NCBI RefSeq assembly: GCF_900086985.1 | Contig: NZ_LT593974.1 | Span: 4,080,443-4,144,442 of the forward strand | Reading direction: 5' to 3' | Source: Halomonas sp. HL-93 | GTDB taxonomy: Bacteria; Pseudomonadota; Gammaproteobacteria; Pseudomonadales; Halomonadaceae | Length of the DNA stretch: 64,000 nucleotides | Shown: piece after piece, positions 1,728 through 52,849 of the stretch | Layout of the letters: the number at the start of each line of letters is the position of its first letter | Position numbering within the stretch: position 1 is the stretch's first letter | Position numbers and translations under genes: made by a program | Notes under the pieces: generated by a model | The model's database searches: none | What the model was told of the DNA's origin: nothing | What the model saw: the letters and a program-made list of their open reading frames with translations, nothing else

Positions 1728-1737
1728 GGAGTTTTTG

Positions 1738-32797: not shown

Positions 32798-32844
32798 CAG
32801 GGTATTGGGTCGGGCAGGTATTCGGCATTAACGAGGAAGCATCC

Positions 32845-33321
32845 ATGACTAGATTCACACGCCTAATCAGTCGGTTGTTGCTTGTACTCGCGGGTATGAG
32901 TTTGCTGGCGATGATGCTCTTGGTGGTGACCAACATCATTATGCGTCAGGTGGCGTCTTCGCTCGGTGGAACTACCGAGGTGGTAGGTTGGCTGACGGCG
33001 GTGGTGGTGTCATCTTCCTTGGCCTATGCCCAGTTGACCAAGGCGCACATTGAGTTGGACATACTGGTGGCGCGACTGCCTCAGCGGCCCCAGCGCCTCA
33101 TCCAACTGCTGGTCGCGGTGGTGAGCCTGCTTTTCTTTACCATGGTGGCGTACAAACTCTGGGAGTATGGCACTTTTGCCATGCAGCGAGGCACGCTATC
33201 GCAATCCCTTCGCCTGGCCATTTATCCGATTATCTATCTGGTCGCCTTTGGCTTCAGCGCATTCTGCCTCGTGTTGTTGACGGATGTGCGGGCTTGCCTG
33301 ACGCAGGGGAGAGAGGTATGA
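32845..33321 (+). CDS. dctQ: TRAP transporter small membrane subunit DctQ
   Basis: This 158-residue subunit has four predicted membrane segments (about 10-32, 47-65, 88-108, 128-148). It overlaps dctM by four bases (ATGA). It follows dctP after 61 bp that contain half of the hairpin noted at 32767. It serves the transporter ahead of the iac-like operon. Confidence 0.85.
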   Translation: MTRFTRLISRLLLVLAGMSLLAMMLLVVTNIIMRQVASSLGGTTEVVGWLTAVVVSSSLAYAQLTKAHIELDILVARLPQRPQRLIQLLVAVVSLLFFTMVAYKLWEYGTFAMQRGTLSQSLRLAIYPIIYLVAFGFSAFCLVLLTDVRACLTQGREV

Positions 33322-34680: not shown

Positions 34681-35838
34681 ATGCCATCTCTTATTCAGCA
34701 TCTCGACTTAGGCACGGGCGCCAAGCGAGTCGTGGTTAAGGACAGTATCGATATCGCCGGCTACCCAACCCAGGCAGGTTCAGCGGCGCTGGCCGACGCG
34801 CCAGCGGCAGAGAGGCATGCCGAGATCGTCGAACGCACGCTTGTGGCCGGTTATCGCATCGTCGGCAAGGCCAATCTGCACGAGCTGGCGTTCGGCATGA
34901 CCGGGCTCAATGCTTGGACGGGCACCCCCGAGAATCCGCGCTTTCCGGCGCTGATCCCGGGTGGGTCGTCCAGCGGTTCGGCGGCGGCGGTCGCCGCGGG
35001 GCTGGCCGAGATAGGCATTGGCACCGATACCGGCGGCTCGATCCGGGTACCGGCGGCCTGCTGCGGGGTATACGGCTTGAAGCCGACGTTTGGTCGGCTC
35101 AGTCGGCGCGGCGTTATGCCCGCGTACAGCAGCCTGGACTGCGTGGGGCCGCTCAGCGCCACTATCGAGGAGTTGATCGACTTCATGTCATCCATTGATG
35201 CGGGATTCTCGGTCGAAAGCAGCGAAGCGGTGCCACGCATATGCACGCTAGACGTGGCGGCCGATGTCGCAATTCTCGGCACGCTGGAAGCGTATCTCGA
35301 AGCTGCCGGGCTGGCCGCTGAAAAGCGCGCTTTACCACTGATGGGCGAGGCTTTCGATGCCGCCATGGCGCTGATCAACCGTGAAACCTATATGGCCTGT
35401 GGTGTCTGGCTCGACAGTGGCCGCTTAGGGAAGGACGTGGAGCGCCGCTTGCGCGGGGCTGCCAAGACCTCCGAAGCCGAGCTGTGCGAGGCGGAAGCGG
35501 TGCGCCAGACCTTCGCTGTCGAGGTGGATCGGCTGTTTGAGACTTGCGAAGTACTGGCGCTGCCGACGTTGCCGCACTTTCCACTGAGCCGCGCACCAGC
35601 CGAGGAGGGGCAGCAGGATCTGACCATCTCCTCTCTTGTACGGCCCTTTAACCTTTCAGGACACCCTGCCTTGAGTCTGCCCATGCCGCCGAATCGGGGC
35701 CGACCGGTGAGCCTGCAGCTCGTCGGCAGGCGAGGCGACGACGCTGGTTTATGCCGGGCCGCGTGCTATCTGGTCAAGGCTCAGCGTGACACGACCATAC
35801 CCATAATAGGAGATATTTATGCACAGCCAGGTCGATAA
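34681..35838 (+). CDS. iacH: Amidase-signature hydrolase, IacH-like
   Basis: This roughly 385-residue enzyme is of the amidase-signature family. The Ser-Ser-Lys triad is present: K20 in VVVKDSID, the cis-serine in GGSSSGSAAA near 98 and the nucleophile in GTDTGGSIRVPA near 122. In iac clusters of pseudomonads, iacH encodes such an amidase; its exact reaction in the indole-acetate route is not settled as far as I know. The start is uncertain: ATG 34681 lacks a good ribosome site, and GTG 34666 is an alternative. It overlaps iacA by 20 bases. Confidence 0.8.
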   Translation: MPSLIQHLDLGTGAKRVVVKDSIDIAGYPTQAGSAALADAPAAERHAEIVERTLVAGYRIVGKANLHELAFGMTGLNAWTGTPENPRFPALIPGGSSSGSAAAVAAGLAEIGIGTDTGGSIRVPAACCGVYGLKPTFGRLSRRGVMPAYSSLDCVGPLSATIEELIDFMSSIDAGFSVESSEAVPRICTLDVAADVAILGTLEAYLEAAGLAAEKRALPLMGEAFDAAMALINRETYMACGVWLDSGRLGKDVERRLRGAAKTSEAELCEAEAVRQTFAVEVDRLFETCEVLALPTLPHFPLSRAPAEEGQQDLTISSLVRPFNLSGHPALSLPMPPNRGRPVSLQLVGRRGDDAGLCRAACYLVKAQRDTTIPIIGDIYAQPGR

Positions 35839-36964
35839 AACCCAATGGGGCGGCGAGGGGCGCTTCGATGCGTTGCTCGACAGCATCCGCCAACGGCGTG
35901 CTGAGTTCGAAGCGCAGCGCTGCCTCTCGGCGGACATCATCGACGAGTTCAAGGCCATCGGAGTCTACCGTGCCATGGTGCCGGCCCGTTACGGTGGCGA
36001 TGAGAAAACACCCGCCGAGTTCCTGAAAATGGTCGAGGCGATCTCGGCAGCCGATGGCTCTGCCGGCTGGGTGGCCAGCTTCGGTATGAATCCCGCCTAC
36101 CTGGCGGCGCTGCCCGAGGCGACCATCACCCAGATCTGGAAGGACTCTCCAGATGTGGTGTTCGCGGGGGGGATTTTTCCGCCCCATCCCGCCGAGCGAG
36201 TCGATCGAGGCTTTCGTATCAAGGGGCGCTGGAAATTCGCCAGCGGCTGCATGGGCGCCTCACTGTGCGGTGTCGGAATCCAGCCCGACGAGCCCGACGC
36301 CTTGCCGCGCATGGCGGTACTGCCCCGCGAGCAGGTTCACATCGATCCCACCTGGAACATGGTCGGTATGGTCGCCACCGGCAGCCACGACCTGGTGGTG
36401 GATGACGCTTACGTCGCCGAGGAGTGGACCTTCGTGCGCGGCGCCAGGGCCACCATCGACGCGCCCTTCTTCCGCTACCCGGCCCTCTCCTTTGCTACCC
36501 AGGTGCTGGCAGTCACCACCCTGGGGCTGGCCCGGGAGGCGCTGGACGTGGTGCGTGCCATGGCTGGGGGGCGCAAGTCGGTCACCGGGGCGCCCAAACT
36601 GGGCGAGCGCGAGTACGCCCAAATCGCCCTGGCCAAGGCCGAGGCCCAGGTGCGTGCCGCCCGTGCCTTCTTCTACGACAGCACCGAGTCGGCCTGGAGT
36701 GCCGTCGAGGCCGGCACCGAGCCGAGTCGCGACCAGATCAATCTGCTGCGTCTCTCCGCCACCCATCTGACCCATGAGTGTGCCGCGGCCATTCGCAGCA
36801 TCTATCAGATCAGCGGCATGATCGGCGCCGAAAACAGTCATCCCTTATCACGCATTCTGCGCGACTCTCTGTTGTGCACTCAACATGCCTTCATGGGCGA
36901 GATCACCTGGAAGAACGCCGGCGCCATCTTCTTTAATCACGACCCCCTGCCGGGCTATTTGTGA
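35819..36964 (+). CDS. iacA: IacA-like flavin monooxygenase (acyl-CoA dehydrogenase fold)
   Basis: This 381-residue protein has the acyl-CoA dehydrogenase/HpaB-type fold of group D flavin monooxygenases: helical N domain (YRAMVPARYGGD near 50), middle beta domain (FRIKGRWKFASGCMGA near 133) and four-helix C domain (ARAFFYDSTESAW near 280). IacA starts indole-3-acetate attack by oxidising the indole ring with reduced flavin supplied by IacG. The start is ATG 35819 behind AGGAG. The gene set and order around it (H-A-B-C-D-E-F-G-I) match iac, which is the main reason for this name. A HpaB-like phenol hydroxylase is the alternative. Confidence 0.83.
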   Translation: MHSQVDKTQWGGEGRFDALLDSIRQRRAEFEAQRCLSADIIDEFKAIGVYRAMVPARYGGDEKTPAEFLKMVEAISAADGSAGWVASFGMNPAYLAALPEATITQIWKDSPDVVFAGGIFPPHPAERVDRGFRIKGRWKFASGCMGASLCGVGIQPDEPDALPRMAVLPREQVHIDPTWNMVGMVATGSHDLVVDDAYVAEEWTFVRGARATIDAPFFRYPALSFATQVLAVTTLGLAREALDVVRAMAGGRKSVTGAPKLGEREYAQIALAKAEAQVRAARAFFYDSTESAWSAVEAGTEPSRDQINLLRLSATHLTHECAAAIRSIYQISGMIGAENSHPLSRILRDSLLCTQHAFMGEITWKNAGAIFFNHDPLPGYL

Positions 36965-37000
36965 ACGAGCGACATCAACTGACAAGCGGAGATCATCATT

Positions 37001-37345
37001 ATGCATCGCGTACTTTTTTGCTGCGGTATCAACCAGAACTTCATGAACGCCACCGCGGAGGAGGCCAAGCAGGTGTGGGAGGCCACCCGCGAGATGCTGC
37101 AGGGCATCGACGGCCTGCCCGGCCTCACGATCCTGGGCATCATGGATGACGACTGTATTCAGGTAGGCCCCTCCATCGCCGCTCCCTGGACTTTCTACAT
37201 TATGGCGGATGTACAGAACTACGACTCCGTCGCTGAAGCTTGCAACTTCTTTCGCACCACACCGGTAGGGGATGGCACCTACAAGCTCTGGAAATACTGC
37301 CGTGTCGAGGCGCGAATCGGGCGTGAGCTCGTCGTGCCCGAGTGA
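37001..37345 (+). CDS. iacB: IacB-like small protein
   Basis: This 114-residue protein has no motif that I can assign to an enzyme. Its text (HRVLFCCGINQNFMNATAEE, later TFYIMADVQNYDSVAEACNF) suggests a small alpha/beta sandwich like the dimeric ferredoxin-like (EthD/DUF3303-type) folds. Its place between iacA and iacC is the place of iacB in known iac clusters. It may bind or stabilise an intermediate. CGGAG precedes the ATG. Confidence 0.72.
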   Translation: MHRVLFCCGINQNFMNATAEEAKQVWEATREMLQGIDGLPGLTILGIMDDDCIQVGPSIAAPWTFYIMADVQNYDSVAEACNFFRTTPVGDGTYKLWKYCRVEARIGRELVVPE

Positions 37346-37362
37346 CGGTTGCGTCATCGGTA

Positions 37363-37376
37363 AATAGTTGCGCAAC
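37363..37376. promoter_or_regulatory. Palindrome and MarR-like half-site before iacC
   Basis: AATAGTTG at 37363-37370 is the exact half-site of the inverted repeat before the MarR gene at 51915, and overlaps the perfect palindrome GTTGCGCAAC (37367-37376). It may be an internal control site for the iacCDEFG part. Confidence 0.45.
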
Positions 37377-37405
37377 AAGGAAAAAATAGATACTTCGAGG
37401 TCATC

Positions 37406-38674
37406 ATGAGTACCGCAAACAAAATCGACATCACCCCTCACGAGCTCGTCTTCAGGGATCATATTAAGACCCCCATGTATGCAGACCCCCAGCTGTTCGA
37501 GGAGGAGATGCAGAAAATCTTCAAGAAAACCTGGGTCTGGGTCGCCCACGAAAGTGAGTTCCCTGACAAGGGGTCGTTCAAGCTTTCCCAGGTGGGTCTC
37601 GAGCCGGTCATCGTGGTGCGCGACAGGAAGGGCGTGATCCATGTCATGGTGAACCGCTGTCGCCATCGTGCTGCCACGGTTTGTGAAGTGAAAAAGGGCA
37701 AGACTTCCTCGTTCCAGTGCCCTTACCACGGGTGGGGCTACGGGCTTGATGGCTCGCTGCGGGCGCTACCGTACCCCGAGCAGTACGGCGACGATTTCGA
37801 CAAGGCGCAGCACGGCCTGCTCAAGCTACGCACCGAGTCCTATGCAGGCATGGTCTTTGCCACTTTCAACGAGGAGGTCGAACCGCTGATCGACTTCCTC
37901 GGCCCGGTCACCAAGTGGATCGACCTGTTCATGAAGCAGGGGGCGGGCTATCCGGTCAAGGTGCTGGGCGAACATCAGTTCAGCGTGCCAATGAACTGGA
38001 AGGTCCAGCTCGAGAACACCACCGACGCCTATCACTTCCCCGTCGTCCACAAATCCTTCCTGCAGTCGCTGGATGGCGAGACTGAAGAGGTCTTCTCCTT
38101 CCTGGAACAGGGCAAAGGGTACGTCGAGGATCTGGGTAACGGGCATTCGGTCATGGTCATGATTCCCGAGCTGGTGGATCTTGACGAAAACCTGGAAGCA
38201 CCGATCCCTGAGCGCTTCGCGGACCTGGCCCAAGAGCTGCGCGGCGAAGGCTACCCCGAGGATCAGGTGAGGCGCATCGTGCGCGCCGTGGGCGGTGCGG
38301 GCTTCAACCTCAATCTGTTCCCCAACGTCTCTTTCTCGCTGGCGTTCTTCCGTGTCTTGACGCCGGTGAACGTCGAGCGCACCGACATTCGCCACATCGC
38401 CATCGGCATGGAGGGAGGCCCCGAGGCGGCCAACCAGGCACGTCTGCGTCTGCACGAGCATTTCCAGGGCCCGATGGGCTTCGGCTCGCCCGATGATGCC
38501 GAGGTCTGGGAGCGGATTCAGCGCGGCGTCAAAGGGGGCGCGGAACTGCCCATTCTGCTCAATCGCGGTCTCGACGATGAACAGCCGGGCGAGGTGGGGC
38601 CGCGCGGCCATATCAGTGCCGAAACCGGGATGCGGGCGGCGTACGACATGTGGAAGAGGATGATGCAGGCATGA
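37406..38674 (+). CDS. iacC: Rieske dioxygenase large subunit, IacC-like
   Basis: This 422-residue oxygenase alpha subunit has Rieske ligands in CRHRAATVCE near 83 and CPYHGWGYG near 103, and a catalytic iron motif in NTTDAYHFPVVHKS near 205. With IacD (beta) and IacF (reductase) it forms the ring-opening dioxygenase that in the iac pathway converts dioxindole-3-acetate to catechol. It resembles benzoate and anthranilate dioxygenase alpha subunits, including BenA at 59432, but the neighbours are iac-type. GAGG precedes the ATG. Confidence 0.85.
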   Translation: MSTANKIDITPHELVFRDHIKTPMYADPQLFEEEMQKIFKKTWVWVAHESEFPDKGSFKLSQVGLEPVIVVRDRKGVIHVMVNRCRHRAATVCEVKKGKTSSFQCPYHGWGYGLDGSLRALPYPEQYGDDFDKAQHGLLKLRTESYAGMVFATFNEEVEPLIDFLGPVTKWIDLFMKQGAGYPVKVLGEHQFSVPMNWKVQLENTTDAYHFPVVHKSFLQSLDGETEEVFSFLEQGKGYVEDLGNGHSVMVMIPELVDLDENLEAPIPERFADLAQELRGEGYPEDQVRRIVRAVGGAGFNLNLFPNVSFSLAFFRVLTPVNVERTDIRHIAIGMEGGPEAANQARLRLHEHFQGPMGFGSPDDAEVWERIQRGVKGGAELPILLNRGLDDEQPGEVGPRGHISAETGMRAAYDMWKRMMQA

Positions 38675-39165
38675 ACGAGATGATCAAAAAGGAAAAAGGG
38701 CTGCTCCTACGCGACGCGGAAGCCTTCATCTGGGCCGAGGCGGATCTTTTGGATCGCAAGGACTATGACGCCTGGCTCGCCCTATGGAGTGATGAAGGCT
38801 TCTATACATTACCCATTGGCGATGGCGAGGACTTCGACAACATGCTCAACCTCTGCCATGACGATGCGAAGATGCGTCGTGATCGCATTACGCGCTTCCA
38901 GCAAGGGTTTTCGATTTCATCGGCCCCCCCTGCCCAGACGGTGAGAACGATATCGCGCTTTGTGATTGATAAGGTCGAAGCCGACGACGTCACGGTTCGC
39001 TGCGCCGAGCACCTGATTGAAGACAAGTTCGGGCGCCAGCGGATCTGGGCCGCGGATCTGACCTATACCCTCATCGTGACGCCGGGCGGCTTCAAGATCC
39101 GCCATAAGGTAGCGCGTCTGCTCAACTCCGACGGGATGCTGAACTCGTTCAGCTATTTGTTCTGA
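38671..39165 (+). CDS. iacD: Rieske dioxygenase small subunit, IacD-like
   Basis: This 164-residue beta subunit has the cone-shaped NTF2-like fold of ring-hydroxylating dioxygenase small subunits (FIWAEADLLDRKDYDAWLAL near residue 18, RWIAADL-like RIWAADLTYTLI near 122). It is structural, not catalytic. It starts in an ATGA overlap with iacC and ends in a TGATG overlap with iacE, so the three are tightly coupled. Confidence 0.84.
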   Translation: MNEMIKKEKGLLLRDAEAFIWAEADLLDRKDYDAWLALWSDEGFYTLPIGDGEDFDNMLNLCHDDAKMRRDRITRFQQGFSISSAPPAQTVRTISRFVIDKVEADDVTVRCAEHLIEDKFGRQRIWAADLTYTLIVTPGGFKIRHKVARLLNSDGMLNSFSYLF

Positions 39166-39923
39166 TGACTATGCCTGCACCCGACAAAATCCAGACGGCC
39201 GTGGTGACCGGTGGGGCGCGTGGCTTCGGCGCTGAAGCCGTGCGTGCTCTGCATAGAGCCGGTTTCCGAGTAGTGATCTCGGACATTGAGCCCGAACCGG
39301 CCGAGGCGCTGGCCTCAGAGCTCGATCTTGCGGGCGACACCGCCGTATCCGCCACCCTGGACGTCACCAGCCCTGAAGATTTCCAGAGTGTGCTCGACAA
39401 GTGCATAGAACGCTGGGGATCCGTAGAAGTGCTGGTCAACAACGCAGCGCGTACGGCCGTCCAGGGGGTGCTGGAGATTGACCCCGCAGACTTCAATGCC
39501 GTGCTGGCCACCAACGCCGGCGGCACCTTTGCGGGCAGCCAAATATTTGGCCGCCACTTCAAGGCGCGTGGCTATGGGCGGATCGTTAATCTCGCCTCCC
39601 TGGCGGGCCAGAACGGTGGTACGGCAACGGGGGCTCACTACGCCGCCTCCAAGGGCGCCATTCTGACGTTGACGAAAATTTTCGCGCGGGATCTGGCTCC
39701 CTTCGGGGTGACCTGCAACGCCATTGCGCCTGGGCCCATGGATACACCCATGGTGCGTTCCGTGCTTGGCAAAGACGCCGAGAAAGCCATTGCCAATATC
39801 CCGGTAGGCCACCTGGGTGACCCGTACTTCGTTGCCGACCTGGTAGCGCTGCTGGCGAGCCCTCGGGCGGCGTTCGTCAATGGCGCTTGCTGGGACGTCA
39901 ACGGTGGAATCTACATGAGGTGA
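39165..39923 (+). CDS. iacE: Short-chain dehydrogenase, IacE-like
   Basis: This 252-residue SDR has the cofactor motif TGGARGFG near 15, NNAA near 91 and the catalytic Ser and YxxxK in AHYAASKGA near 158. IacE is reported to help convert 2-hydroxy- or oxo-indole-acetate to dioxindole-3-acetate. NAD(H) is the likely cofactor, given an aspartate after the second strand (VVISDIEPE). The start overlaps the iacD stop. Confidence 0.82.
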   Translation: MTMPAPDKIQTAVVTGGARGFGAEAVRALHRAGFRVVISDIEPEPAEALASELDLAGDTAVSATLDVTSPEDFQSVLDKCIERWGSVEVLVNNAARTAVQGVLEIDPADFNAVLATNAGGTFAGSQIFGRHFKARGYGRIVNLASLAGQNGGTATGAHYAASKGAILTLTKIFARDLAPFGVTCNAIAPGPMDTPMVRSVLGKDAEKAIANIPVGHLGDPYFVADLVALLASPRAAFVNGACWDVNGGIYMR

Positions 39924-39928
39924 TGCCA

Positions 39929-40900
39929 ATGGAAACCACTAACAAAAGCCTGATGCTATTGATCGACAAGCGTATTGATGAGCCGGGGGGGATTGTCAGA
40001 TTGCGGCTGCGCGCTCCGGACGGCGCACCCCTGCCCCCTTTCACTGCTGGAGCGCACCTCGACGTGCATGTCCGCGATGGCGACATCGACCTGTGGCGCC
40101 AGTACTCGCTCTGCTCAGACCCGGCGTGCAATGAGTTCTACGAGATCGGCGTACTGCGCGACCCCAATAGTCGTGGGGGCTCAGAAACATTGCACAGGAT
40201 CGCGAGAGAGGGGGAAACGCTCGAGATCGAAGGGCCGCGAAACCACTTTCCGCTCCATGAAGAAGCGCCGCAGAGCCTGCTGTTCGGCGGCGGCATTGGC
40301 GTCACGCCGATGATGGCGATGGCTCGCCGCCTGCGCGCGCAGGGCAAGGACTTCACCCTGCACTACTGCACGCGCTCGCGCAGCGCGACGGCCTTCCGCG
40401 GCGAGGTGGAGGCAGCTGGCCTGTCCGACTTCGTCGTCTATCACCATGACGACGAGATCGAGACCAAGCTCGATCTGGACGCCGAACTCGCCGCTGCCAG
40501 GGAGGGGGTCCACGTCTACGTGTGCGGTCCCCAGGGGTTCATGGATTGGGTGATCTCCCGGGCCCAGGCGTTCGGCATCGGCGATGAACGCATTCATCGC
40601 GAATTCTTCTCCGCCGACGTCGATATCTCGGGTGACGCTTTCGAGGTGGTCGCCGAAAGATCCGGCGTCAGCGTGTTCGTCGGCACCGAGGAGACGATTG
40701 CCAAAGTCCTCGCCAAGGCCGGCGTGAAAGTGGAAGTGAAATGCGAGGAGGGCGTGTGTGGTACCTGCGTGGCCGACGTCCTCGAAGGCGAGATCGATCA
40801 TCGCGATCACTTTCTGACCGAAGACGAAAAACAGGAAGGCGACATGATGTGCGTATGTTGCTCCCGGGCCAAGGGTAAGCGGCTCGTTCTCGATCTCTGA
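39929..40900 (+). CDS. iacF: Dioxygenase reductase, IacF-like
   Basis: This roughly 323-residue protein has the VanB-type layout: flavin domain with RQYSLCSDPA near 53, nucleotide domain with LLFGGGIGVTPMM near 115 and C-terminal 2Fe-2S domain with CEEGVCGTCVAD near 272 and CVCCSRAKG at the end. It passes electrons from NAD(P)H to IacCD. I chose ATG 39929 because GAGG (39917-39920) is 8 bases upstream; ATG 39923 is too near. It resembles VanB in this window and is probably an ancient paralogue. Confidence 0.84.
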   Translation: METTNKSLMLLIDKRIDEPGGIVRLRLRAPDGAPLPPFTAGAHLDVHVRDGDIDLWRQYSLCSDPACNEFYEIGVLRDPNSRGGSETLHRIAREGETLEIEGPRNHFPLHEEAPQSLLFGGGIGVTPMMAMARRLRAQGKDFTLHYCTRSRSATAFRGEVEAAGLSDFVVYHHDDEIETKLDLDAELAAAREGVHVYVCGPQGFMDWVISRAQAFGIGDERIHREFFSADVDISGDAFEVVAERSGVSVFVGTEETIAKVLAKAGVKVEVKCEEGVCGTCVADVLEGEIDHRDHFLTEDEKQEGDMMCVCCSRAKGKRLVLDL

Positions 40901-40921
40901 CGACAAGCAAAGGACACAACA

Positions 40922-41113
40922 ATGCCAACCGTTCACGTCTACATGATGGAGGGCCGCAGACAGGCCCAAAAAGAGTCACTGATCCGCAAGGTCACCGATG
41001 CCGTCGTGTCGTCGGTCGATGCGCCCGAAGCGAATGTCCGGGTCATCATCAGTGAGATACCCAAGAGCGACTACGGTATCGCCGGTACGACCGGCGAGAA
41101 ATTAGGGCGCTGA
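40922..41113 (+). CDS. 4-oxalocrotonate tautomerase-like protein
   Basis: This 63-residue protein has the 4-oxalocrotonate tautomerase fold with the catalytic N-terminal proline (MPTVHVYMMEGR) and a conserved central part ending in VRVIISEIPKSDYGIAG. It sits between iacF and iacG and is not a standard iac gene. It could speed conversion of 3-hydroxy-cis,cis-muconate (product of the hydroxyquinol dioxygenase) to maleylacetate, or a keto-enol step of an oxindole. AAGGA precedes the ATG. Confidence 0.8.
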   Translation: MPTVHVYMMEGRRQAQKESLIRKVTDAVVSSVDAPEANVRVIISEIPKSDYGIAGTTGEKLGR

Positions 41114-41146
41114 AAACGATCCCGTTTTGAGGATGGAGATTCGCTT

Positions 41147-42070
41147 ATGAGCTTCGATACGAGAGATTTCCGTAGCGCGCTGGGCAAGTTCGCCACCGGC
41201 GTAACGGTGGTCACCACGCGCAGCGGTGAAGAGAACCACGGTGTCACCGCCAGCAGCTTCAATTCGGTGTCGATGGATCCGCCGCTGATCCTGTGGAGCA
41301 TCGACAAGGGGGCCTACAGTCTGGGTGCTTACCGCCATGCTGAGCACTTCGTGGTCAACGTGCTCAGCAATGAGCAGGTCGATATCTCCAATTGCTTTGC
41401 ACGGCGGGGGGAGGACAAGTTCGCTGGCATTGCCATTGAGGAGGGCCTTGGCGGCGTTGCCAAGGTGAAGGGGGCCGCGGCGCATTTCGAATGCCGCACG
41501 TGGAATGTCTACGAGGGCGGTGATCACCTGATCATCGTTGGCGAAGTGGTGCGCTACGCCTATCGCAACGAGGGCAGTGCTCTGGTGTTCCACAACGGGC
41601 GCTATGCCGTACCCGAGCCTCATCCCATGGTGTTGAACGTTGACGAGCAAACGGCACTGGATGGTCGTTTGGGCAAGCACTTGCTTTACCTGATGCGTCA
41701 GGCGCTAGCCGCCTATAGAGGCGATTTCTATCCGCGGCTCGGCAGCCTCGGGGTCAACGACAACGAGTGGCGAATTCTTACCCTGCTGGCGGATCGTGGC
41801 CCATTGTCCTCGGAGGCCCTGGCCCAGCGTGTGGCCCAACCCCAGGCAGACCTTGAGGACACCCTTGCTGGGCTGCGCGAACGTACGCTGGTGGTAGACG
41901 GCAATGGTCGCGTTCAGCTTAGCGAGCAAGGGCAGGCATTGGCACGACGCCTGCTGTCCATGGCTGATGACTACGAACAGCGTCTGTTTGAGAACCTGGA
42001 GCCGTCCGAAGTCGGGGCGATCAAGTCAGGCTTGGGGCGCGTGATCGAGCGTCTTGGTGCGTCGTTATAA
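41147..42070 (+). CDS. iacG: Flavin reductase with C-terminal MarR-like domain, IacG-like
   Basis: This 307-residue protein has a flavin reductase domain (about 1-165, FATGVTVVTTRSGEENHGVT then ASSFNSVSMDPPLILW) and a MarR-type winged helix at about 185-305 (NDNEWRILTLLADRGPLSSE then ALAQRVAQPQADLEDTL). IacG supplies reduced flavin to IacA. The same two-part plan is known in the reductase component C1 of 4-hydroxyphenylacetate hydroxylase of Acinetobacter, where the substrate binds the MarR-like part and activates NADH oxidation. I infer similar substrate gating here. It is unlikely to bind DNA. Confidence 0.84.
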   Translation: MSFDTRDFRSALGKFATGVTVVTTRSGEENHGVTASSFNSVSMDPPLILWSIDKGAYSLGAYRHAEHFVVNVLSNEQVDISNCFARRGEDKFAGIAIEEGLGGVAKVKGAAAHFECRTWNVYEGGDHLIIVGEVVRYAYRNEGSALVFHNGRYAVPEPHPMVLNVDEQTALDGRLGKHLLYLMRQALAAYRGDFYPRLGSLGVNDNEWRILTLLADRGPLSSEALAQRVAQPQADLEDTLAGLRERTLVVDGNGRVQLSEQGQALARRLLSMADDYEQRLFENLEPSEVGAIKSGLGRVIERLGASL

Positions 42071-42180
42071 GCAGCTAAGTAAGTGCAAAGACGGCCTTAA
42101 CTGCCCTACGCGTACTTTGAGCAAAAGGGCAAACCTAACGTCGGGGTTGACCCTCCGGCAAACAAGCAAAGGAGCGAGAC

Positions 42181-42747
42181 ATGTCAGACGTCACAAATAG
42201 CGAACTGAAGGCGTTGGTAACACGCATCGAAACCCTGGAGGCCGAGGCCGAGATCCGTCGCCTTCAGGCCCGCTACATGTTTCTGTGCGATACGCCAATT
42301 CCCGAGTATGGCGTGACCAGCGATGAAGAGCGTATCGATTTGATCATGGCGCTATACACGGAAGACGCCGTCTGGGAGGGCGTTGGCGAATATTACGACA
42401 ACCAGTTCGGCCGTGCCGAAGGGGCGGCGGCCATCCGGCGCCATTTCCAAGGGTTCTGGAAGAAAGATCAGGATCCCAAGCTGCTGCTCAACGTCCACTA
42501 CCTGACCTCGGAGCAGATCTACGTCAATGGTGACGTTGCAGAGGGCCAGTGGGTGCACTGCCAGCCCTGGATCTTCTCTAATGGCAAGGCACTGCTGCGT
42601 TCGTCGCGGCTCAACAACGCCTTCCGCAAGGAGCCTGACGGGAAGTGGAAAATCACCCGAACGCGTACGGAGAATGTCTTCGTCGCGCCTCTACAGGAGG
42701 GGTGGGCAACGGATTACCCCTCGCAATCGGTATTGCTCAAACCCTAA
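42181..42747 (+). CDS. iacI: NTF2/SnoaL-like protein, IacI-like
   Basis: This 188-residue protein has the NTF2-like (SnoaL) fold: an N-terminal helix with IRRLQARYMFLCD, then EDAVWEGVG and the strands WVHCQPWIFSNGK. IacI of known iac clusters is of this family; its reaction is not firmly established. It precedes the maleylacetate reductase gene by 12 bp. AAAGGAG precedes the ATG after a 110-bp gap, which may hold a promoter. Confidence 0.75.
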   Translation: MSDVTNSELKALVTRIETLEAEAEIRRLQARYMFLCDTPIPEYGVTSDEERIDLIMALYTEDAVWEGVGEYYDNQFGRAEGAAAIRRHFQGFWKKDQDPKLLLNVHYLTSEQIYVNGDVAEGQWVHCQPWIFSNGKALLRSSRLNNAFRKEPDGKWKITRTRTENVFVAPLQEGWATDYPSQSVLLKP

Positions 42748-42759
42748 GGGAGAAAAAGT

Positions 42760-43818
42760 ATGCCACACGCTTTTCTCTATACGGCCAACCCGGCGCGGGT
42801 TGTGTTTGGCCTGGGTAGCCAGGCCAGGATTGCTGACGAGGTGCGCCAGTTGGGGCGCACCAGGGCCCTGGTATTGTCGACGCCCTCCCGCCGCGAGGAT
42901 GCTGAACGTCTCAACGTGCAGCTTGGTGAGCTGGGTGCCGGCGTCTTCAGCGAGGCGGCCATGCACACGCCTGTGAAGGTCACCGAACAGGCCATGACGG
43001 CTTTTGATAAAGCAGGCGCCGACTGTATCGTCGCACTGGGCGGCGGCTCGACGATAGGCCTGGGCAAGGCGATCGCCTATCGCAACGATGCGCCGCAGGT
43101 GGTGGTAGCGACAACGTATGCCGGTTCCGAGGTCACGCCGATTCTGGGGCAAACTGAAAATGGCCGGAAGACCACTGTCAAGGATCCCTCCATTCTTCCC
43201 GAAGTGGTGATTTACGACCCGGAACTCACGGTTGGACTGCCGGTGGCAGTGAGTGTGACCAGCGGTCTTAACGCCTTGGCGCATGCAGTGGAAGGGCTCT
43301 ATGCCAAGGATCGTAACCCCATCAGTAGCCTCATGGCCATGGAGGGCATTCGCAGCCTCAAGCAGGCGCTGCCTGCCATCGTTGAACAGCCGCAGAGTCT
43401 GCAGGCCCGCAGTGACGCGCTCTATGGCGCTTGGCTTTGCGGCACCGTGTTGGGCAGTGTCGGCATGGCTTTACACCACAAGCTCTGCCATACCCTGGGA
43501 GGCAGCTTCGACCTGCCGCATGCCGATACCCACGCCATCCTGCTGCCGCATACCGCGGCTTACAACGCTCGCTCGGCAGAGGAGGCGCTGGCCCCAGCAG
43601 CGGCGCTTTTTGGCGGTGAGCTTGGTGGGGGCCTCTACGACTTTGCGGCGTCACTCGGTGCCCCTCTTGCCCTCAAAGCCCTAGGGCTGAGCGAGTCGGA
43701 TCTGGACAGCGTTGCCGATCAGGCGGTGCAGAACCCGTACTGGAACCCCCGGCCGGTGGAGCGCGAAGCCATTCGTGAGCTGCTCCAGCGCGCCTGGAAC
43801 GGAACCCGTCCCGAATAA
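42760..43818 (+). CDS. Maleylacetate reductase
   Basis: This 352-residue iron-type alcohol dehydrogenase family member reduces maleylacetate to 3-oxoadipate with NAD(P)H. It has the family's GGGSTIGLGKA near 88 and the metal-site histidines in ALAHAVEGLYA near 165 and MALHHKLCHTLGGSF near 228; TTYAGSEVTPILG near 110 is typical of maleylacetate reductases. Together with the next gene it forms the hydroxyquinol route. The product enters PcaIJF. Confidence 0.9.
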   Translation: MPHAFLYTANPARVVFGLGSQARIADEVRQLGRTRALVLSTPSRREDAERLNVQLGELGAGVFSEAAMHTPVKVTEQAMTAFDKAGADCIVALGGGSTIGLGKAIAYRNDAPQVVVATTYAGSEVTPILGQTENGRKTTVKDPSILPEVVIYDPELTVGLPVAVSVTSGLNALAHAVEGLYAKDRNPISSLMAMEGIRSLKQALPAIVEQPQSLQARSDALYGAWLCGTVLGSVGMALHHKLCHTLGGSFDLPHADTHAILLPHTAAYNARSAEEALAPAAALFGGELGGGLYDFAASLGAPLALKALGLSESDLDSVADQAVQNPYWNPRPVEREAIRELLQRAWNGTRPE

Positions 43819-43862
43819 TTCATCTCGGCCCTGGCGACAGGGCGCTCACCCAGGAGTTAACC

Positions 43863-44708
43863 ATGTCTCAAATTGATTACTTCACTGAAGAGCACTCCGT
43901 TGAGTCGGTCAATAGGCGTATGGGGGAAGATATCGACCCAAGGCTGCGTCAGGTCATCGGCTCGCTGGTCAAACACTTGCATGGTTTCGTCAAGGAGGTC
44001 GAACTCACCCAGGCGGAGTGGGAACTGGCAATCGATTTCCTGACCAGTACGGGACAAATGTGCGATGACAAGCGGCAGGAGTTCATCTTGCTCTCCGATA
44101 CGCTCGGGGTCTCCATGCTGGTGGATGCCATTCAGCATCGACGCCCGGCGGGCGCGACCGAAAATACGGTGTTCGGCCCCTTTCATGTGGACGGGGCGCC
44201 GGAGCTGCCCATGGGAGCTTCCATCTCGTTGGATGGCAAGGGCGAGCCGTGCCGCTATCAGGGTCGGGTGCTTGATCTGGAGGGCCACCCCATCGAGGGG
44301 GTACGCATCGATGTTTGGTCAGACAACAGTGACGGATTTTACGACATTCAGCAGCCCGATCAGCAGCCAGAGTGGAACAACCGCGGCGTTTTCGTTACTG
44401 CTGCCGACGGTTACTACGAATTTATTGGCATCAAGCCGGTTTCTTATCCGATCCCTGATGACGGTCCGGTAGGCAAGCTGCTTGAAAGTCTCGGGCGTCA
44501 TCCGTGGCGGCCGGCACACATGCACTTCTTGCTCACGCATCCTGACTATCAACGGATTGTTACCCACACCTTCGTTGCCGGTGATGCTTACCTGACATCG
44601 GACGCGGTCTTCGGCGTTAAAGACTCACTTATTGTGGATTATTTTCCAGTTAATAGTGGAAAGGTGAAGTGGCAGACAAGTTTCGACTTTGTTATGGCGC
44701 CGAAATAA
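43863..44708 (+). CDS. Hydroxyquinol 1,2-dioxygenase
   Basis: This 281-residue intradiol dioxygenase cleaves hydroxyquinol (benzene-1,2,4-triol) to 3-hydroxy-cis,cis-muconate, the enol of maleylacetate. Iron ligands are visible in DGFYDIQQPD, PVSYPIPDDG, and the histidines of WRPAHMHFLL. The N-terminal helical dimer domain (LTQAEWELAIDFLTSTGQMC) is of the catechol/hydroxyquinol type. It differs clearly from CatA at 58423. Pairing with maleylacetate reductase is what points to hydroxyquinol and not catechol. Confidence 0.9.
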   Translation: MSQIDYFTEEHSVESVNRRMGEDIDPRLRQVIGSLVKHLHGFVKEVELTQAEWELAIDFLTSTGQMCDDKRQEFILLSDTLGVSMLVDAIQHRRPAGATENTVFGPFHVDGAPELPMGASISLDGKGEPCRYQGRVLDLEGHPIEGVRIDVWSDNSDGFYDIQQPDQQPEWNNRGVFVTAADGYYEFIGIKPVSYPIPDDGPVGKLLESLGRHPWRPAHMHFLLTHPDYQRIVTHTFVAGDAYLTSDAVFGVKDSLIVDYFPVNSGKVKWQTSFDFVMAPK

Positions 44709-44721
44709 GGAGGCTCTTATT

Positions 44722-44742
44722 AGTCACTGCGGTGACTTTGTT
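44722..44742 (+). terminator. Probable terminator of the iac-like operon
   Basis: AGTCAC-TGCG-GTGACT is a 6-bp stem followed by TTTGTTATT. The T run is interrupted, so strength is uncertain. Confidence 0.55.
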
Positions 44743-44822
44743 ATTGCTTGATTCCGCCAGGGGCATATTTGCCTTTCCAACCATGATCGATGCTGATGAG
44801 TCAGTTTGCCCATAGCTACAAT

Positions 44823-44855
44823 TAATTTTATAACATATTGTTTTTTATAAAATTA
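44823..44855. promoter_or_regulatory. 11-bp-arm inverted repeat before the APC permease
   Basis: TAATTTTATAA and TTATAAAATTA are perfect arms separated by 11 bp in an AT-rich region, 98 bp before the permease start. The arrangement suits a dimeric regulator. The AraC, MarR or other regulator bound is unknown. Confidence 0.6.
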
Positions 44856-44952
44856 TTGATGCCGATATGGGATAACGCTGCTGATTTAATGAGCATAGTA
44901 TGTAGGTTGTGACCCTGATAACTCCTATAAGCATAATATAAAGGCTAAGACA

Positions 44953-46404
44953 ATGAGCGTTACTTCCTCCTCCGCTGTCAGTTCGACAGAACTAAGGCGC
45001 GGCGCTTTGGGCGTCGGTTTCATTATCTTCTTTGTAGTGTCTGCTGCGAGTCCTTTCAGTGTGCTTGCTGGTGGTTTCCCTATCGGCATTATGCTGGGAA
45101 ATGGTGCAGGCACACCGGTATTAATCGGCTTAGCACTAGTGATTATTCTGATGTTTTCGGTGGGGTACACCACCATTGCTCGCTACGTGACGAATGCCGG
45201 GGGCTTCTATGCCTTTTCGGCAAGAGGGCTGGGGGGAGTAGCGGGCGGTGCCGCCGGCGGGCTTGCCCTATTTGCGTATAACATCCTGCAAATCGGGTTG
45301 TATGGGATGTTTGGTGGCGTTGCGGCAGGCACCATGAGTGAAGTGTTTGGCCTGCACCACCCATGGTGGCTCTACTCGCTGCTGGCGATGGGAAGTATCG
45401 CATTGCTGGGGTATCGAAAAATTGATCTTTCTGCCCGCGTGCTTTGCTTCGTTGTTACGGCAGAGTATCTGGTTATTCTCATATTGGACGTTGCCATTCT
45501 GACGAGTGGCGGGGACAGCGGCGTTAACCTCGACGCGTTCAATGCCGAACATGTCTTCAGTGGTGCCCCGTCCATAGGCCTGCTGTTCTGCTTTGCCGCT
45601 TTCATCGGTTTTGAGGCGACGACCATCTATGGGGAAGAGGCCAAAAACCCCAGGCGAGATATTCCGCTGGCGACTTACGCCTCCATACTTCTGATTGGCT
45701 GCTTTTATGCCCTCTCCACATGGTCGATGGTGGTGGGTACAGGAGCTGATAAAATTGTTACCGTCCTCCAAGGCCTCGACGATCCAACCACATTGATTTA
45801 TGGGCTGTCCGATCATTATGTAGGCCCCGAGTTGACCCGCGTTATTCGCGTGATGTTTCTGGTCAGCATCTATGCGGGTTTGCTCGCCTTTCATAACTCC
45901 GCCGCTCGCTATTTCTTCGCCATAGGCCGTGATGGTTTGCTGCCAAGCATATTGGGAACGACCCATCCGGTTCATCAGAGTCCTCATATTGGCTCGCTTC
46001 TACAAACGTTGATCGCTACCAGCGCGATATTGATTTTTGCCGCCTCGGGTGGTGATCCCATTCTGCAGCTCTTCGCCTGGTTCTCCAGTTTGGCGGCCCT
46101 TTCCTTGATCCTATTGATGGCCATTACTTCTTTGGCGGTGCTGGTCTTTTTTATCCGTCACCCCGAGCTGCAAGAGGCCATGTGGCGAACGCGCCTGTTG
46201 CCGGCACTATCCTGTGCGGCTCTGTTATTCATGCTAGTGATTGCGGTGATGCACTTTGACGTCCTGACGGGCTCAAGCAAGGTGCTCTCGTATAGCCTCT
46301 GCATGCTCATTCCCCTGTTTCTGATGGTAGGCGTCATTCTGGCAGTACGCCTTCGTCGATCTTCGCCCGAAAGCTATCAATCGCTTGGTTTTCATAAACT
46401 TTAA
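44953..46404 (+). CDS. APC-superfamily amine/amino acid permease
   Basis: This 483-residue membrane protein has about 12 hydrophobic segments and the APC motif FVVSAASPFSVLAGGFPIG near 30 followed by the FAAFIGFEATTIYGEEAKNP signature near 220. It imports a cationic or zwitterionic amine compound by ion coupling. It leads a group with an aldehyde dehydrogenase, class III aminotransferase and porin. That grouping suggests an amine substrate that is deaminated, then oxidised to an acid fed to the iac-like operon. Substrate identity is inferred. Confidence 0.82.
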   Translation: MSVTSSSAVSSTELRRGALGVGFIIFFVVSAASPFSVLAGGFPIGIMLGNGAGTPVLIGLALVIILMFSVGYTTIARYVTNAGGFYAFSARGLGGVAGGAAGGLALFAYNILQIGLYGMFGGVAAGTMSEVFGLHHPWWLYSLLAMGSIALLGYRKIDLSARVLCFVVTAEYLVILILDVAILTSGGDSGVNLDAFNAEHVFSGAPSIGLLFCFAAFIGFEATTIYGEEAKNPRRDIPLATYASILLIGCFYALSTWSMVVGTGADKIVTVLQGLDDPTTLIYGLSDHYVGPELTRVIRVMFLVSIYAGLLAFHNSAARYFFAIGRDGLLPSILGTTHPVHQSPHIGSLLQTLIATSAILIFAASGGDPILQLFAWFSSLAALSLILLMAITSLAVLVFFIRHPELQEAMWRTRLLPALSCAALLFMLVIAVMHFDVLTGSSKVLSYSLCMLIPLFLMVGVILAVRLRRSSPESYQSLGFHKL

Positions 46405-46464
46405 GTTCACTAAAAAGCTCGTCAAAACAGCTAATTGTCTGGGTGAGAAACAAAAGGAAGCGTT

Positions 46465-47889
46465 ATGGAAAATTACCACCTGGTGATCAACGGCGAAGAT
46501 GTGGCCGGTGAAAAAGGCAGCTTCAAGGTCATTAACCCAGCCAGTGATACCGCTTTTGCGCAGTGCTCGGCTGCTTCAACCGAACAGTTGGATCAAGCCG
46601 TCAATGCTGCTCGGGAGGCCTTCACCCAGTGGGGGCTCAGCTCCCATGAGCAACGTTGTGAGCTTTTGCATCTGATTGCCAATGATATGGAGCGCGAGGT
46701 AGATGAGCTGGCGAGGCTGATTGTCCAGGAGCAAGGAAAACCGTTGGCGCTGGCCTACGCTGAAGTGGGAGGTGGCGTGGCCTGGACACGTTATGCCGCC
46801 AGTCAAGAACTCCCGATCAAACTGATCGAAGAGACGCCTACGCAGCGCATCGAAATGCATCACAAACCCTTGGGAGTGGTGGCCTCTATCACCCCCTGGA
46901 ACTGGCCCTTCATGATTGCTGTGTGGCACATCATGCCAGCATTGCGCGCAGGCAACTGTGTCATTAGCAAGCCATCCAGCCTTACGCCCCTGAGTACGAT
47001 TCGCTTGATCAAGATTATTGCCCGCCATGTACCGAAGGGGGTCGCCAACGTCGTCATTGGTGAGCATGGCTTTGGGCATGCGATTACCTCTCATCCGGGT
47101 ATCAACAAGATTGTCTTCACAGGATCCACAGAGACAGGGCAGCGCGTTATGCAAGCGGCGGCCGGAAACCTCAAGCGACTGACCCTGGAGTTGGGAGGCA
47201 ATGATGCGGCTATCGTATTGCCCGGTACACCGGTCGAGGCGGTGGCCGAGGACATTTTCCAGGCGGCGTTCCTCAACATGGGGCAGACCTGCGCCGCGCT
47301 CAAGCGACTCTACGTACACGAATCACAGTGTCAGGCACTCGCCGAGGCCTTGACGCTTATTGCTCAGAAACAAGTCATCGGTAACGGCCTTGAGGAAGGT
47401 GTGACCTTTGGGCCGATACAGAACCTGGAGCAACTGACGTTGGTGAGTGAGCTTGTTGATGATGCTCGTGCCCATGGTGCACGGGTGCTGTGCGGTGGGG
47501 AGCGCCTAAGCCGACCAGGTTTCTTTTATCCCCCCACTATTGTCACCGGGGCCACCGATGGTCATCGCTTGGTGGATGAGGAGCAGTTCGGCCCAGTGCT
47601 GCCAGTGATCGCCTATCGCGACGTGGAAGACGCACTGCAACGTGCCAACGCCAGCAGCATGGGGCTGGGAGGCTCGGTGTGGGGCCCTGATACGGCCGAG
47701 GCCCAGGCTATCGCAGCGCGTCTGGAAAGCGGTGTGGCCTGGGTCAACTGCCACGCCCAGATTCAACCGAATACCCCCTTTGGAGGCTGCAAGATGTCAG
47801 GTTTTGGCGTCGAGTTTGGCCTGGAGGGGCTGCTGGAATTCACAGCCCAGCAACTCTTATTCGTACGTAAGTCCGACGCTCAACAGTGA
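46465..47889 (+). CDS. NAD(P)-dependent aldehyde dehydrogenase
   Basis: This 474-residue enzyme has all landmark residues: [10 protein letters not shown] near 137, [10 protein letters not shown] near 218, catalytic glutamate in LELGGNDA near 242 and catalytic cysteine in [11 protein letters not shown] near 275. It resembles succinate-semialdehyde/phenylacetaldehyde-type dehydrogenases. Its stop overlaps the region of the aminotransferase start, and it probably oxidises the aldehyde which that enzyme forms, for example (5-hydroxy)indole-3-acetaldehyde to the acid. AAAAGGAAGCG precedes the ATG. Confidence 0.85.
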
Positions 47890-47900
47890 GGATGACCACC

Positions 47901-49310
47901 ATGTCCACGAATCTCGTGCTCAAGCAGGGCGCTAACCAAGAAGTGACAAAGGGCGCAGCCATGTACGCAAAATACAAGACAGCGGAAAAGAAGTTCTGGC
48001 ACCCGATGAGCGTCTCGGCGCCAGCCAATCGGGCCAAAACCCTGATCATCGCCCGCGGCGATGGCAACTACGTCACCGACATTGATGGCAACCGCCTGCT
48101 CGATGGTGTCGGTGGCCTGTGGAACGTCAACGTTGGTCATAATCGCCCCGAAGTTAAGGCCGCCATTGCCGCGCAGCTTGACGAGCTGGCCTACTATCAG
48201 ACCTTCGATGGTATTGCCCACCCGCGCGTGTTCGACTTGGCCGAGCGACTGACCGGCATGTTCGCTCAGGAGCGTATGGCCCGTGTGCTGTTCAACTCCG
48301 GCGGCTCCGATGCGGTAGAGACCGCACTGAAAATGGCGCGTCAATACTGGATCGCTGCCGGTCAGCCGGGCCGCACCCGTTTCCTCTCGCTACGCAATGG
48401 CTACCATGGTGTGCACGTTGGCGGCACCTCGATTGGTGGCAACGGCGTCTATCACTATAACCATGGTCAACTGCTTGCCGGTTGCTATTTGCTCGACACC
48501 CCCTGGCTGTATCGCAATCCCTGGGATTGCCGCGAGCCGGAAGAACTGGTCGAGCATTGCATTCGCCAACTCGAGGAGCAGATCGCTTTCCTCGGTGCCG
48601 GCACCATCGCTGCCTTTATCGCTGAGCCGGTGCAGGGGGCGGGTGGCGTGATAGTGCCGCCTTCCAGCTATTGGCCGCGTCTGCGTGAAGTCTGCGACCG
48701 TCACGACATCCTGCTGATCGCCGATGAGGTGGTGACCGGCTTCGGTCGCAGTGGCTGCATGCTCGGCAGCCGTGGCTGGGGAGTGGCACCGGATATCCTC
48801 TGCTTGGCCAAGGGGATTTCCGCCGGCTATATCCCTCTCGGCGCCACGGTGTTCAATCAGCGCATCGCCGATGCCGTCGAGAACGCTCCAGGCTTTGCCA
48901 ACGTGATCATGCATGGCTACACCTACAGCGGTCATCCGGTGGCCTGTGCTGCCGCTCTGGCCGTGCTGGATATCGTTGAGAAAGAAGACCTGACGGGCAA
49001 TGCCGCGAAGGTCGGCGCGCATCTGATCGAGGGATTGAAGCCCTTGAGCGACCGCTTCGATGTGGTCGGCGAAGTGCGCGGCAAGGGGCTGATGATCGCC
49101 CTTGATCTGGTCGCTGACAAGCGCACCCGGCAGCCACTCGATCCTGGCGAGGGGCACGCAGCACGTATCGCTGAGGAGGCACGCAGGCAAGGCGTACTGG
49201 TGCGCCCCGTTGGCAGCAAGATCATCCTCTCTCCGCCTTTGACCCTGACGAACGGTGAGGCTGACATGATCGTTCAGGCGCTTGAGGTGGCTCTTTCGCG
49301 CCAGGGCTAG
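47901..49310 (+). CDS. Class III (omega) aminotransferase
   Basis: This 469-residue PLP enzyme has the class III signature: [20 protein letters not shown] near 105, [10 protein letters not shown] near 145, the PLP-binding aspartate in [15 protein letters not shown] near 245 and the Schiff-base lysine in [16 protein letters not shown] near 274. Family members move amino groups from primary amines or omega-amino acids to pyruvate. I start at ATG 47901, since GAGG is 9 bases upstream; GTG 47886 and ATG 47892 are alternatives. The neighbours (permease, aldehyde dehydrogenase, iac-like genes) suggest an arylethylamine such as serotonin or tryptamine as donor. Confidence 0.87.
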
Positions 49311-50750: not shown

Positions 50751-50836
50751 CTATTTTACCCATGGGGGTGGTCGGCGCTGTTAAGTGAACCATGCTGCTG
50801 AGCTATGGGCGATGCAGTGTTTCCAGAGGGCCGATT

Positions 50837-52728: not shown

Positions 52729-52803
52729 TAAACCCTAAAACGTGGCTGTTAACGGAATGGGTAGAGATTCGGATTTGACGCTGGTAAATATTCGCTCTAT
52801 TTT

Positions 52804-52837: not shown

Positions 52838-52849
52838 AAAGAGGCTTCC

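Follow-up and report, generated by a model that had tools for sequence, protein, structure and literature searches.

Introduction

The closest described relatives of the system analysed here are the iac clusters of Pseudomonas putida 1290, Acinetobacter baumannii, Paraburkholderia phytofirmans and Caballeronia glathei, which degrade indole-3-acetate with catechol as end product (PMC6624763; likewise the excerpted text of PMC11630574). In the excerpt of PMC7225977, IacA oxidises carbon 2 of the indole and IacE yields 3-hydroxy-2-oxindole-3-acetate, the later steps lacking assignment to enzymes even for ordinary iac; tryptamine itself is not oxidised by IacA. Substituted rings are the subject of the available part of PMC12502551, which advances the hypothesis, backed by growth inhibition, that iac converts substituted indole-acetates to substituted catechols. 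The stretch of DNA considered here, called the window, is the final 64 kb of the single 4.14-Mb contig of Halomonas sp. HL-93 (NZ_LT593974.1, positions 4,080,443 to 4,144,442; G+C 56.8%). It carries an iac gene set in one run with genes for a maleylacetate reductase (MAR) and a hydroxyquinol 1,2-dioxygenase (HQD). A first inspection of its letters (the original prediction) had taken the region for a complete pathway for serotonin and 5-hydroxyindole-3-acetate (5-HIAA). Having compared the locus with iac loci of other genomes, we consider it probable, on the strength of gene sequences and their arrangement, that the region encodes a degradation route for serotonin or 5-HIAA that ends via hydroxyquinol.

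Results

An iac run continued by hydroxyquinol genes

The run occupies positions 34681-44708 on the + strand in the order iacH-A-B-C-D-E-F, tautomerase, iacG, iacI, mar, hqd. Between iacH and iacI, adjacent genes are spaced by -25 to +110 bp; iacI and mar are 12 bp apart, mar and hqd 44 bp. Homologues of all of iacA to iacI lie in this one run, which places it among the iac clusters, and their order is similar in the loci compared below. The original prediction had set the iac portion at 34681-42747, with HQD, MAR and a tautomerase inside the same run; it was right on both counts, and all genes that it named were found on the + strand, at or near where it had placed them.

Family matches were obtained for all iac products except IacB. 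The amidase gene iacH (34681..35838; PF01425, 1e-73) was started at the ATG at 34681, the mechanical open reading frame (ORF) running from 34666. It is followed by iacA (35819..36964), for an acyl-CoA-dehydrogenase-fold flavin monooxygenase whose relative P0071 (67%) carries the source name indole-3-acetate monooxygenase. The small IacB (114 aa; 37001..37345) matched no Pfam or NCBIfam family; it was matched between iacA and iacC in all 21 Halomonadaceae loci L021-L041. The Rieske dioxygenase is represented by its alpha subunit IacC (37406..38674; PF00355 and PF00848, and placement in a tree), its beta subunit IacD (38650..39165; PF00866) and its FAD/2Fe-2S reductase IacF (39923..40900; PF00111, PF00175 and PF00970), for which the start codon was picked by inspection in a mechanical ORF that begins at 39887. 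Between the last two lies the short-chain dehydrogenase gene iacE (39165..39923; PF13561, tree). The 4-oxalocrotonate-type tautomerase (63 aa; 40922..41113; PF01361) precedes iacG (41147..42070), a flavin reductase gene (PF01613) whose product reaches 276 bits over residues 2-300 against NF045919, below the cut-off of 340, and has a C-terminal extension resembling that of the p-hydroxyphenylacetate hydroxylase reductase. The SnoaL-like IacI (42181..42747; PF13577, tree) completes the set.

The dioxygenase encoded at 43863..44708 is, judged by its relatives, clearly of the hydroxyquinol type and not of the catechol type: the best solved relatives are 6-chlorohydroxyquinol dioxygenase (8r2x, 426 bits), PnpC (3n9t, 272) and hydroxyquinol dioxygenase (1tmx, 258), against 109-130 bits for full-length catechol dioxygenases and 104-133 bits for chlorocatechol dioxygenases. 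The motifs GFYDIQ, SYPIPDD and RPAHMHF, at residues 158, 194 and 216, hold the Tyr/Tyr/His/His set that we take to be the iron ligands. The neighbouring reductase (42760..43818) has maleylacetate reductases as its best relatives (3w5s, 520 bits; 3hl0, 515 bits).

As had been predicted, catA lies about 14 kb downstream (58423-59397; TIGR02439, 467 bits, cut-off 392), close to a muconate cycloisomerase gene and ben-type genes, 12-18 kb from the run; HQD and MAR are encoded within it. That a genome with catA should nevertheless hold these two genes inside its iac run counts for hydroxyquinol as the product. A search of the whole genome returned a single IacA (E<=1e-60), and thus no second, ordinary iac set. 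Together with a salicylate hydroxylase gene (TIGR03219, above cut-off), the muconate cycloisomerase, catA and ben-type genes form a separate catechol funnel at 55208-62958.

Downstream of hqd come genes for an APC-family amine/amino-acid permease (44953..46404; PF13520; also after HQD in L021-L023 and L025), an aldehyde dehydrogenase (ALDH; 46465..47889; PF00171; kept after HQD in L108-L111) and a class III omega-transaminase (47892..49310; PF00202), all on the + strand and separated by 244 bp from hqd and by 60 and 2 bp from each other. The transaminase matches PDB chain 5lh9, labelled omega transaminase, at 881 bits and without gaps over 450 residues, and belongs by sequence to the class III/omega family; the window thus has an amine-to-acid module beside its ring-degrading genes. 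These three genes had been assigned to an operon of their own. All are present, and a second operon is compatible with the terminator-like hairpin (44722-44737) and promoter-like match (44909-44937) in the hqd-permease gap, sites of classes that a consensus scan finds at about the chance rate (17 terminator-like sites vs 15.5 after shuffling, 9 promoter-like vs 6.9).

Recurrence of the combination

The genome search that the original prediction had called for, for iacA with MAR and HQD genes, found the combination again in Halomonadaceae and in Alphaproteobacteria. We counted 98 iac loci, each spanning 15 kb or more, having dropped 7 of 105 (L043, L045, L049, L053, L054, L069, L080) that had no iacC match or were shorter; 80 loci were taken as the best of 270 confirmed, so that distant iac sets are under-sampled. 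A hydroxyquinol-type dioxygenase is encoded in 15 of the 98, across two classes. MAR accompanies it in 14/15 loci (0/83 of the others), ALDH in 12/15 (6/83), the permease in 9/15 (3/83) and an amine module, defined as TynB plus FAD oxidase or as the transaminase, in 8/15 (2/83). This is what a serotonin pathway predicts, and the comparison supports that reading. Class II aldolase shows the reverse distribution (0/15 vs 31/83), and catA does not differ (2/15 vs 13/83). Two stretches are truncated, L021 after the permease and that of G137 inside HQD, so that genes beyond lie outside the data.

Since HQD loci had longer searched flanks than many others, equal windows of +-10 kb give the fairer, if smaller, comparison (43 of the 105 loci). 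There MAR is found in 9/12 HQD loci vs 1/31, the one being L027, whose HQD lies past the end of that stretch; ALDH in 8/12 vs 0/31 (p=3e-6, Fisher, kinship ignored); aldolase in 0/12 vs 7/31 and catA in 0/12 vs 7/31 (p=0.16 each). In +-20 kb windows (11 loci) the amine module is present in 3/3 vs 0/8.

In the family, 151 genomes were searched: the 20 with HQD are the very 20 with MAR (both at E<=1e-60), and IacA (E<=1e-60) is present in 15. Seven have both IacA and HQD, and in all seven HQD is of the window type (>=75% identity) and inside the iac run; in the other eight with IacA, HQD was not found at E<=1e-60. Another 12 genomes carry a more distant HQD (51-53%) and no IacA. Window-type HQD occurs in eight genomes altogether; that seven of them have it in the iac run makes the linkage of the run with mar-hqd greater than chance. 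In the eighth, G132, mar-hqd adjoins an ORF resembling, by eye, an FAD phenol/resorcinol hydroxylase, with a second intradiol dioxygenase nearby, an arrangement that fits a portable hydroxyquinol module. Of 390 genomes sampled across the order, 20 have IacA (E<=1e-80) and 5 have HQD (E<=1e-60); the window genome alone has both, so the combination is rare there. One otherwise HQD-type cluster (L112, G137) has two in-frame TGA stops in iacA, from assembly error or decay. Judged by spacing, 13 of the 16 loci L026-L041 have an insert between iacF and the tautomerase or iacG, which in L026 and L027 is a second TRAP transporter.

The tautomerase had been named in the original prediction alongside HQD and MAR. 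Its gene is also present in HQD-less Halomonadaceae iac loci, and went unmatched in the seven alphaproteobacterial HQD loci, where a protein so short is easily missed; as a hydroxyquinol marker we rejected it.

Alphaproteobacterial loci were reached mainly through plasmids (42 plasmid records matched IacA; 310 matched HQD, 30 of them surveyed by name; 30 matched IacC, 7 of them examined). Gemmobacter fulvus was chosen because it appears in both the IacA and the HQD plasmid lists, the other plasmid loci by IacC identity. The Gemmobacter plasmid carries Dabb, MAR, HQD, ALDH, iacI, iacH-G, an APC permease, an AraC regulator, TynB ('tyramine oxidase subunit B'; NF004848, 722 bits, cut-off 362), Rid and an FAD oxidase. 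In Sagittula stellata E-37, again on a plasmid, transaminase, MAR, HQD and ALDH accompany iac, and in Shinella PSBB067 and Azospirillum B510, the latter without an iacH match in its iac locus, the companions are TynB, Rid, FAD oxidase, MAR, HQD, ALDH and permease. HQD, MAR, ALDH and an amine module are thus all present in each of these four genera. In Thioclava GXIMD2076 and Rhizobium rhizoryzae, whose IacC is more distant (71% and 66%), neither an HQD-type dioxygenase nor MAR, ALDH or amine genes were seen. The window ALDH is just 34% identical to that of Gemmobacter, so that equal chemistry seems to have been assembled from different parts.

A close IacC (E<=1e-150) was found in 9 of 371 genomes of one alphaproteobacterial order. 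They include Gemmobacter again, G1048 and G1091 with HQD, MAR, ALDH and TynB, five with ketopantoate-reductase-like and aldolase genes, and G818, with neither tail type and a catA-like gene. At 39% the G1091 dioxygenase is divergent; its assignment to HQD follows from its best solved relatives, which are hydroxyquinol enzymes (214 bits, vs at most 136 for chlorocatechol and 129 for catechol enzymes). Between its gene and that for MAR, near the iac set (L170:2959-10534), lies a gene resembling, by eye, an enolase-superfamily cycloisomerase, and this locus possibly serves another ring-substituted indole.

Apparent exchange of the tail

Two loci with different endings, those of H. campaniensis (L027) and V. 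hamiltonii (L028), align over 13.3 kb at 93.5% DNA identity, up to a point inside iacG. Their IacC proteins are 99% and their IacE proteins 100% identical, as against 62% for IacG and 73% for IacI, and the L027 IacG and IacI are closer to those of the window (80% and 86%). L027 continues with MAR, HQD, FAD oxidase, Rid and TynB; L028, with a further stretch of the same genome (L102), has ketopantoate-reductase-like and class II aldolase genes. By these alignments the tail, including iacG and iacI, seems to travel as a unit. A near-identical upper run joined to different tails suggests that rings of either type pass through the upper iac enzymes and that the substrate can be read from the tail.

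In a tree of IacC (97 rows), a quick one like those of IacE and IacI, all 13 HQD rows fall in one group of 33 and none among the other 64; G1091 is not marked as HQD there and G137 has no IacC row. The window sequence is nearest to that of Halomonas ventosae. The type of IacC, IacD or IacE was rejected as a predictor of the tail, the 33-row group including HQD-less loci and L027 and L028 sharing an identical IacE. Ketopantoate-reductase-like and class II aldolase genes were seen in many HQD-less iac loci (L106:9336-11216, L162:21864-23646, L102-L105, G1021/G944/G878/G1000), and perhaps handle the side-chain fragment.

Proposed alternative routes from amine to acid

The transaminase occurs in two of the 98 iac loci, the window and Sagittula, whose enzyme, 60% identical over 435 residues, adjoins MAR. 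As a conserved part of the HQD-type locus it was rejected, being found in none of four other HQD Halomonadaceae genomes in a search made without a positive-control genome. TynB, Rid and FAD oxidase lie near iac-HQD in Gemmobacter, Shinella, Azospirillum, G1048, G1091 and H. campaniensis. TynB was present in all four HQD-positive Halomonadaceae genomes tested that lack a detected transaminase (G035, G104, G116, G007). Rid accompanies it in all four, and so does the FAD oxidase in the three stretches that no contig end cuts short. TynB was not found in the window genome, which has the transaminase, nor in any of eight HQD-negative genomes, four with IacA and four without.

Amine genes also stand beside HQD-less iac in Pseudomonas G429 (L188/L189) and Psychrobacter aestuarii L082, both with a catA-like gene nearby. 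This is the picture expected for unsubstituted tryptamine, and it speaks for the serotonin reading of the HQD loci. In both, TynB-Rid-FAD oxidase, iac and the catA-like gene make up a candidate tryptamine-to-catechol cluster.

Flanking genes

A TRAP transporter (DctP-type binding protein with small and large permease; 31746..34607, + strand; NF037995, 106 bits, cut-off 50; PF03480) ends 73 bp before iacH, and its large permease was matched at this place in 18 of the 21 loci L021-L041; it is a candidate importer of the acid. The ORF directly upstream of it (29520-31619) resembles, by eye, a methyl-accepting chemotaxis protein and could sense the substrate. Beyond the transaminase, likewise on the + strand, lie a porin-like outer-membrane protein recognised by inspection (49422..50750; PF13372 weak and below cut-off) and an AraC-family regulator (50792..51769; PF12833), both kept in L108, L109 and L111. 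They are followed by a MarR-family regulator (51915..52391; PF01047), a candidate IacR whose homologues adjoin many iac loci, and a 3-oxoadipate:acetyl-CoA acetyltransferase (BKACE; 52742..53671; NF053568, 487 bits, cut-off 350). BKACE was rejected as a marker of the hydroxyquinol type, being found also near the HQD-less iac loci L104 and L106. The predicted sink for 3-oxoadipate, pcaIJF, proved to be present at 121..2940 (+ strand), as two CoA-transferase subunit genes (PF01144 twice) and a 3-oxoadipyl-CoA thiolase gene (NF006551, 691 bits, cut-off 605).

Discussion

From which genes are present, how they are ordered, the families they belong to and how regularly they recur together, we infer a substrate, a product and a part for each enzyme. 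Serotonin would enter via the APC permease, the transaminase would remove its amine to give the aldehyde, and the ALDH, a candidate for acting on 5-hydroxyindole-acetaldehyde, would turn this into 5-HIAA; alternatively 5-HIAA would itself enter via the TRAP transporter. The inactivity of IacA on tryptamine (in the excerpt of PMC7225977) fits such a need for earlier conversion to the acid. IacA with IacG, and IacE, would oxidise indole carbons 2 and 3; loss of side chain and nitrogen would fall to the Rieske components IacC, IacD and IacF, acting with IacB, IacI and the IacH amidase. The product would be hydroxyquinol and not catechol, because the ring already bears a hydroxyl: the bookkeeping by which a 5-hydroxyindole leaves benzene-1,2,4-triol is sound provided that C3a and C7a become the carbons of the catechol. 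HQD would then open hydroxyquinol to maleylacetate, MAR would reduce this to 3-oxoadipate, and PcaIJF or, as a second way, BKACE would pass it to central metabolism.

A hydroxylated indole-ethylamine or indole-acetate, positions 5 and 6 taken together, appears quite probable as the substrate class, and serotonin or 5-HIAA is its likeliest member, given gene content, gene order, recurrence in two classes and the unlike enzymes that seem to supply the amine-to-acid steps. Several points weigh against serotonin and 5-HIAA in particular, or against the route as a whole. IacC, IacE and IacI do not separate hydroxyquinol-type from other loci, and with a near-identical IacC and an identical IacE found next to both tails, the upper enzymes give no pointer to a hydroxylated substrate. 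IacA seems not to have been tried on 5-hydroxy substrates, since 5-hydroxy, serotonin and hydroxyquinol go unmentioned in the excerpt of PMC7225977. The amine module, weak alone in equal +-10 kb windows (3/12 vs 1/31, p=0.06, Fisher), is represented by a transaminase absent, within the limits of that search, from four other HQD Halomonadaceae genomes, and by a TynB whose distance to iacA is some 80, 40 and 32 kb in G035, G116 and G007, and which is on another contig in G104, so that it need not belong to the pathway; TynB is named after tyramine, and nearby amine genes could serve other amines. Related loci are moreover non-independent, a kinship that the Fisher values ignore; Martelella AD-3 has HQD and ALDH, with neither MAR nor amine module in its stretch; and G132 (L155) carries window-type mar-hqd with no iac matched on its 8.25-kb contig.

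Separate functions for the two halves of the run would account for this last arrangement: iac would degrade plain indole-3-acetate to catechol for the nearby catA, while mar-hqd, in the run by chance, would serve some other, resorcinol-like or phenolic, substrate. The catechol genes 12-18 kb away and the catA-like genes in 2 of the 15 HQD loci, within the stretches searched, point the same way. We think this unlikely, since the association of iac with HQD recurs in 15 loci of two classes and mar starts 12 bp past iacI here; no hydroxyquinol-forming hydroxylase is seen in the run, where iac is the sole candidate; and iac loci lacking HQD have class II aldolase (31/83) or a catA-like gene (13/83) and never MAR (0/83).

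A different ring-hydroxylated indole acid or amine, such as 6-hydroxyindole-3-acetate, suits the carbon bookkeeping equally well, a 6-hydroxy indole acid leaving the same 1,2,4-benzenetriol. Nothing else here separates the two positions. Because serotonin and 5-HIAA are much more common in nature, we prefer position 5 and hold the alternative to be improbable.

Halogenated indole-acetates, which iac would turn into halocatechols for a chlorocatechol-like route through HQD and MAR, are suggested by the use of maleylacetate reductases in chlorocatechol routes too, by 8r2x being a chlorohydroxyquinol enzyme and by the cycloisomerase-like gene (by eye) between MAR and the divergent HQD of G1091. 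The window run, however, has no cycloisomerase or dienelactone hydrolase, the muconate cycloisomerase lying 12 kb off, and its HQD scores at most 133 bits against chlorocatechol dioxygenases as opposed to 426 against 8r2x, which makes halogenated substrates very improbable. Hydroxylation of plain indole-3-acetate within the pathway, with hydroxyquinol as a mere alternative exit, would account for near-identical upper enzymes with either tail and is yet hardly credible, for no additional hydroxylase is seen in the run, such enzymes should not hydroxylate in one strain only, and ALDH and the amine genes would be left unexplained.

If the serotonin reading is right, the window holds genes for a complete aerobic breakdown of serotonin and 5-HIAA. 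Marker genes for it could be sought in gut, marine and soil data. It would also show a hormone-degrading pathway changing its substrate by swapping its last module, for which the H. campaniensis and V. hamiltonii pair, with near-identical iac enzymes and different tails, provides a natural experiment. We lean, with some reserve, towards the broader view of a widespread modular pathway for serotonin and other hydroxylated indoles, built of a shared iac core, exchangeable tails (catechol for tryptamine or auxin, hydroxyquinol for serotonin) and lineage-specific enzymes of amine oxidation. In that view, serotonin would be broken down all the way to central metabolites by Halomonadaceae and by several alphaproteobacteria, among them Gemmobacter, Sagittula, Shinella and Azospirillum. 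The open PMC literature, by titles and the beginnings of abstracts and with most subscription journals outside this scope, gave no recognisable account of bacteria degrading serotonin or 5-HIAA by way of iac, hydroxyquinol or maleylacetate.

The window's genes amount to an iac pathway in modified form and do not define a system of a new kind. With the clusters of P. putida 1290, A. baumannii, P. phytofirmans and C. glathei it shares the iacA-I families and a nearby MarR-type regulator (PMC6624763; PMC11630574 in excerpt). Where P. putida 1290 has catR-catBCA nearby (PMC6624763), the window has HQD and MAR in the run instead, and it adds ALDH, permease and transaminase downstream, plus the tautomerase and TRAP genes. 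The iad cluster of Variovorax also removes indole-3-acetate, but takes it to anthranilate with a different gene set (PMC11630574, excerpt). The TynB-Rid-FAD oxidase (NF004848) module stands near iac-HQD elsewhere, in the place where the window has its transaminase. Hydroxyquinol pathways built on HQD and MAR are known from the Gra, Tft and Pnp systems; the window shares these two enzyme families with them, and has iac enzymes where the known pathways have an upstream phenol or resorcinol hydroxylase.

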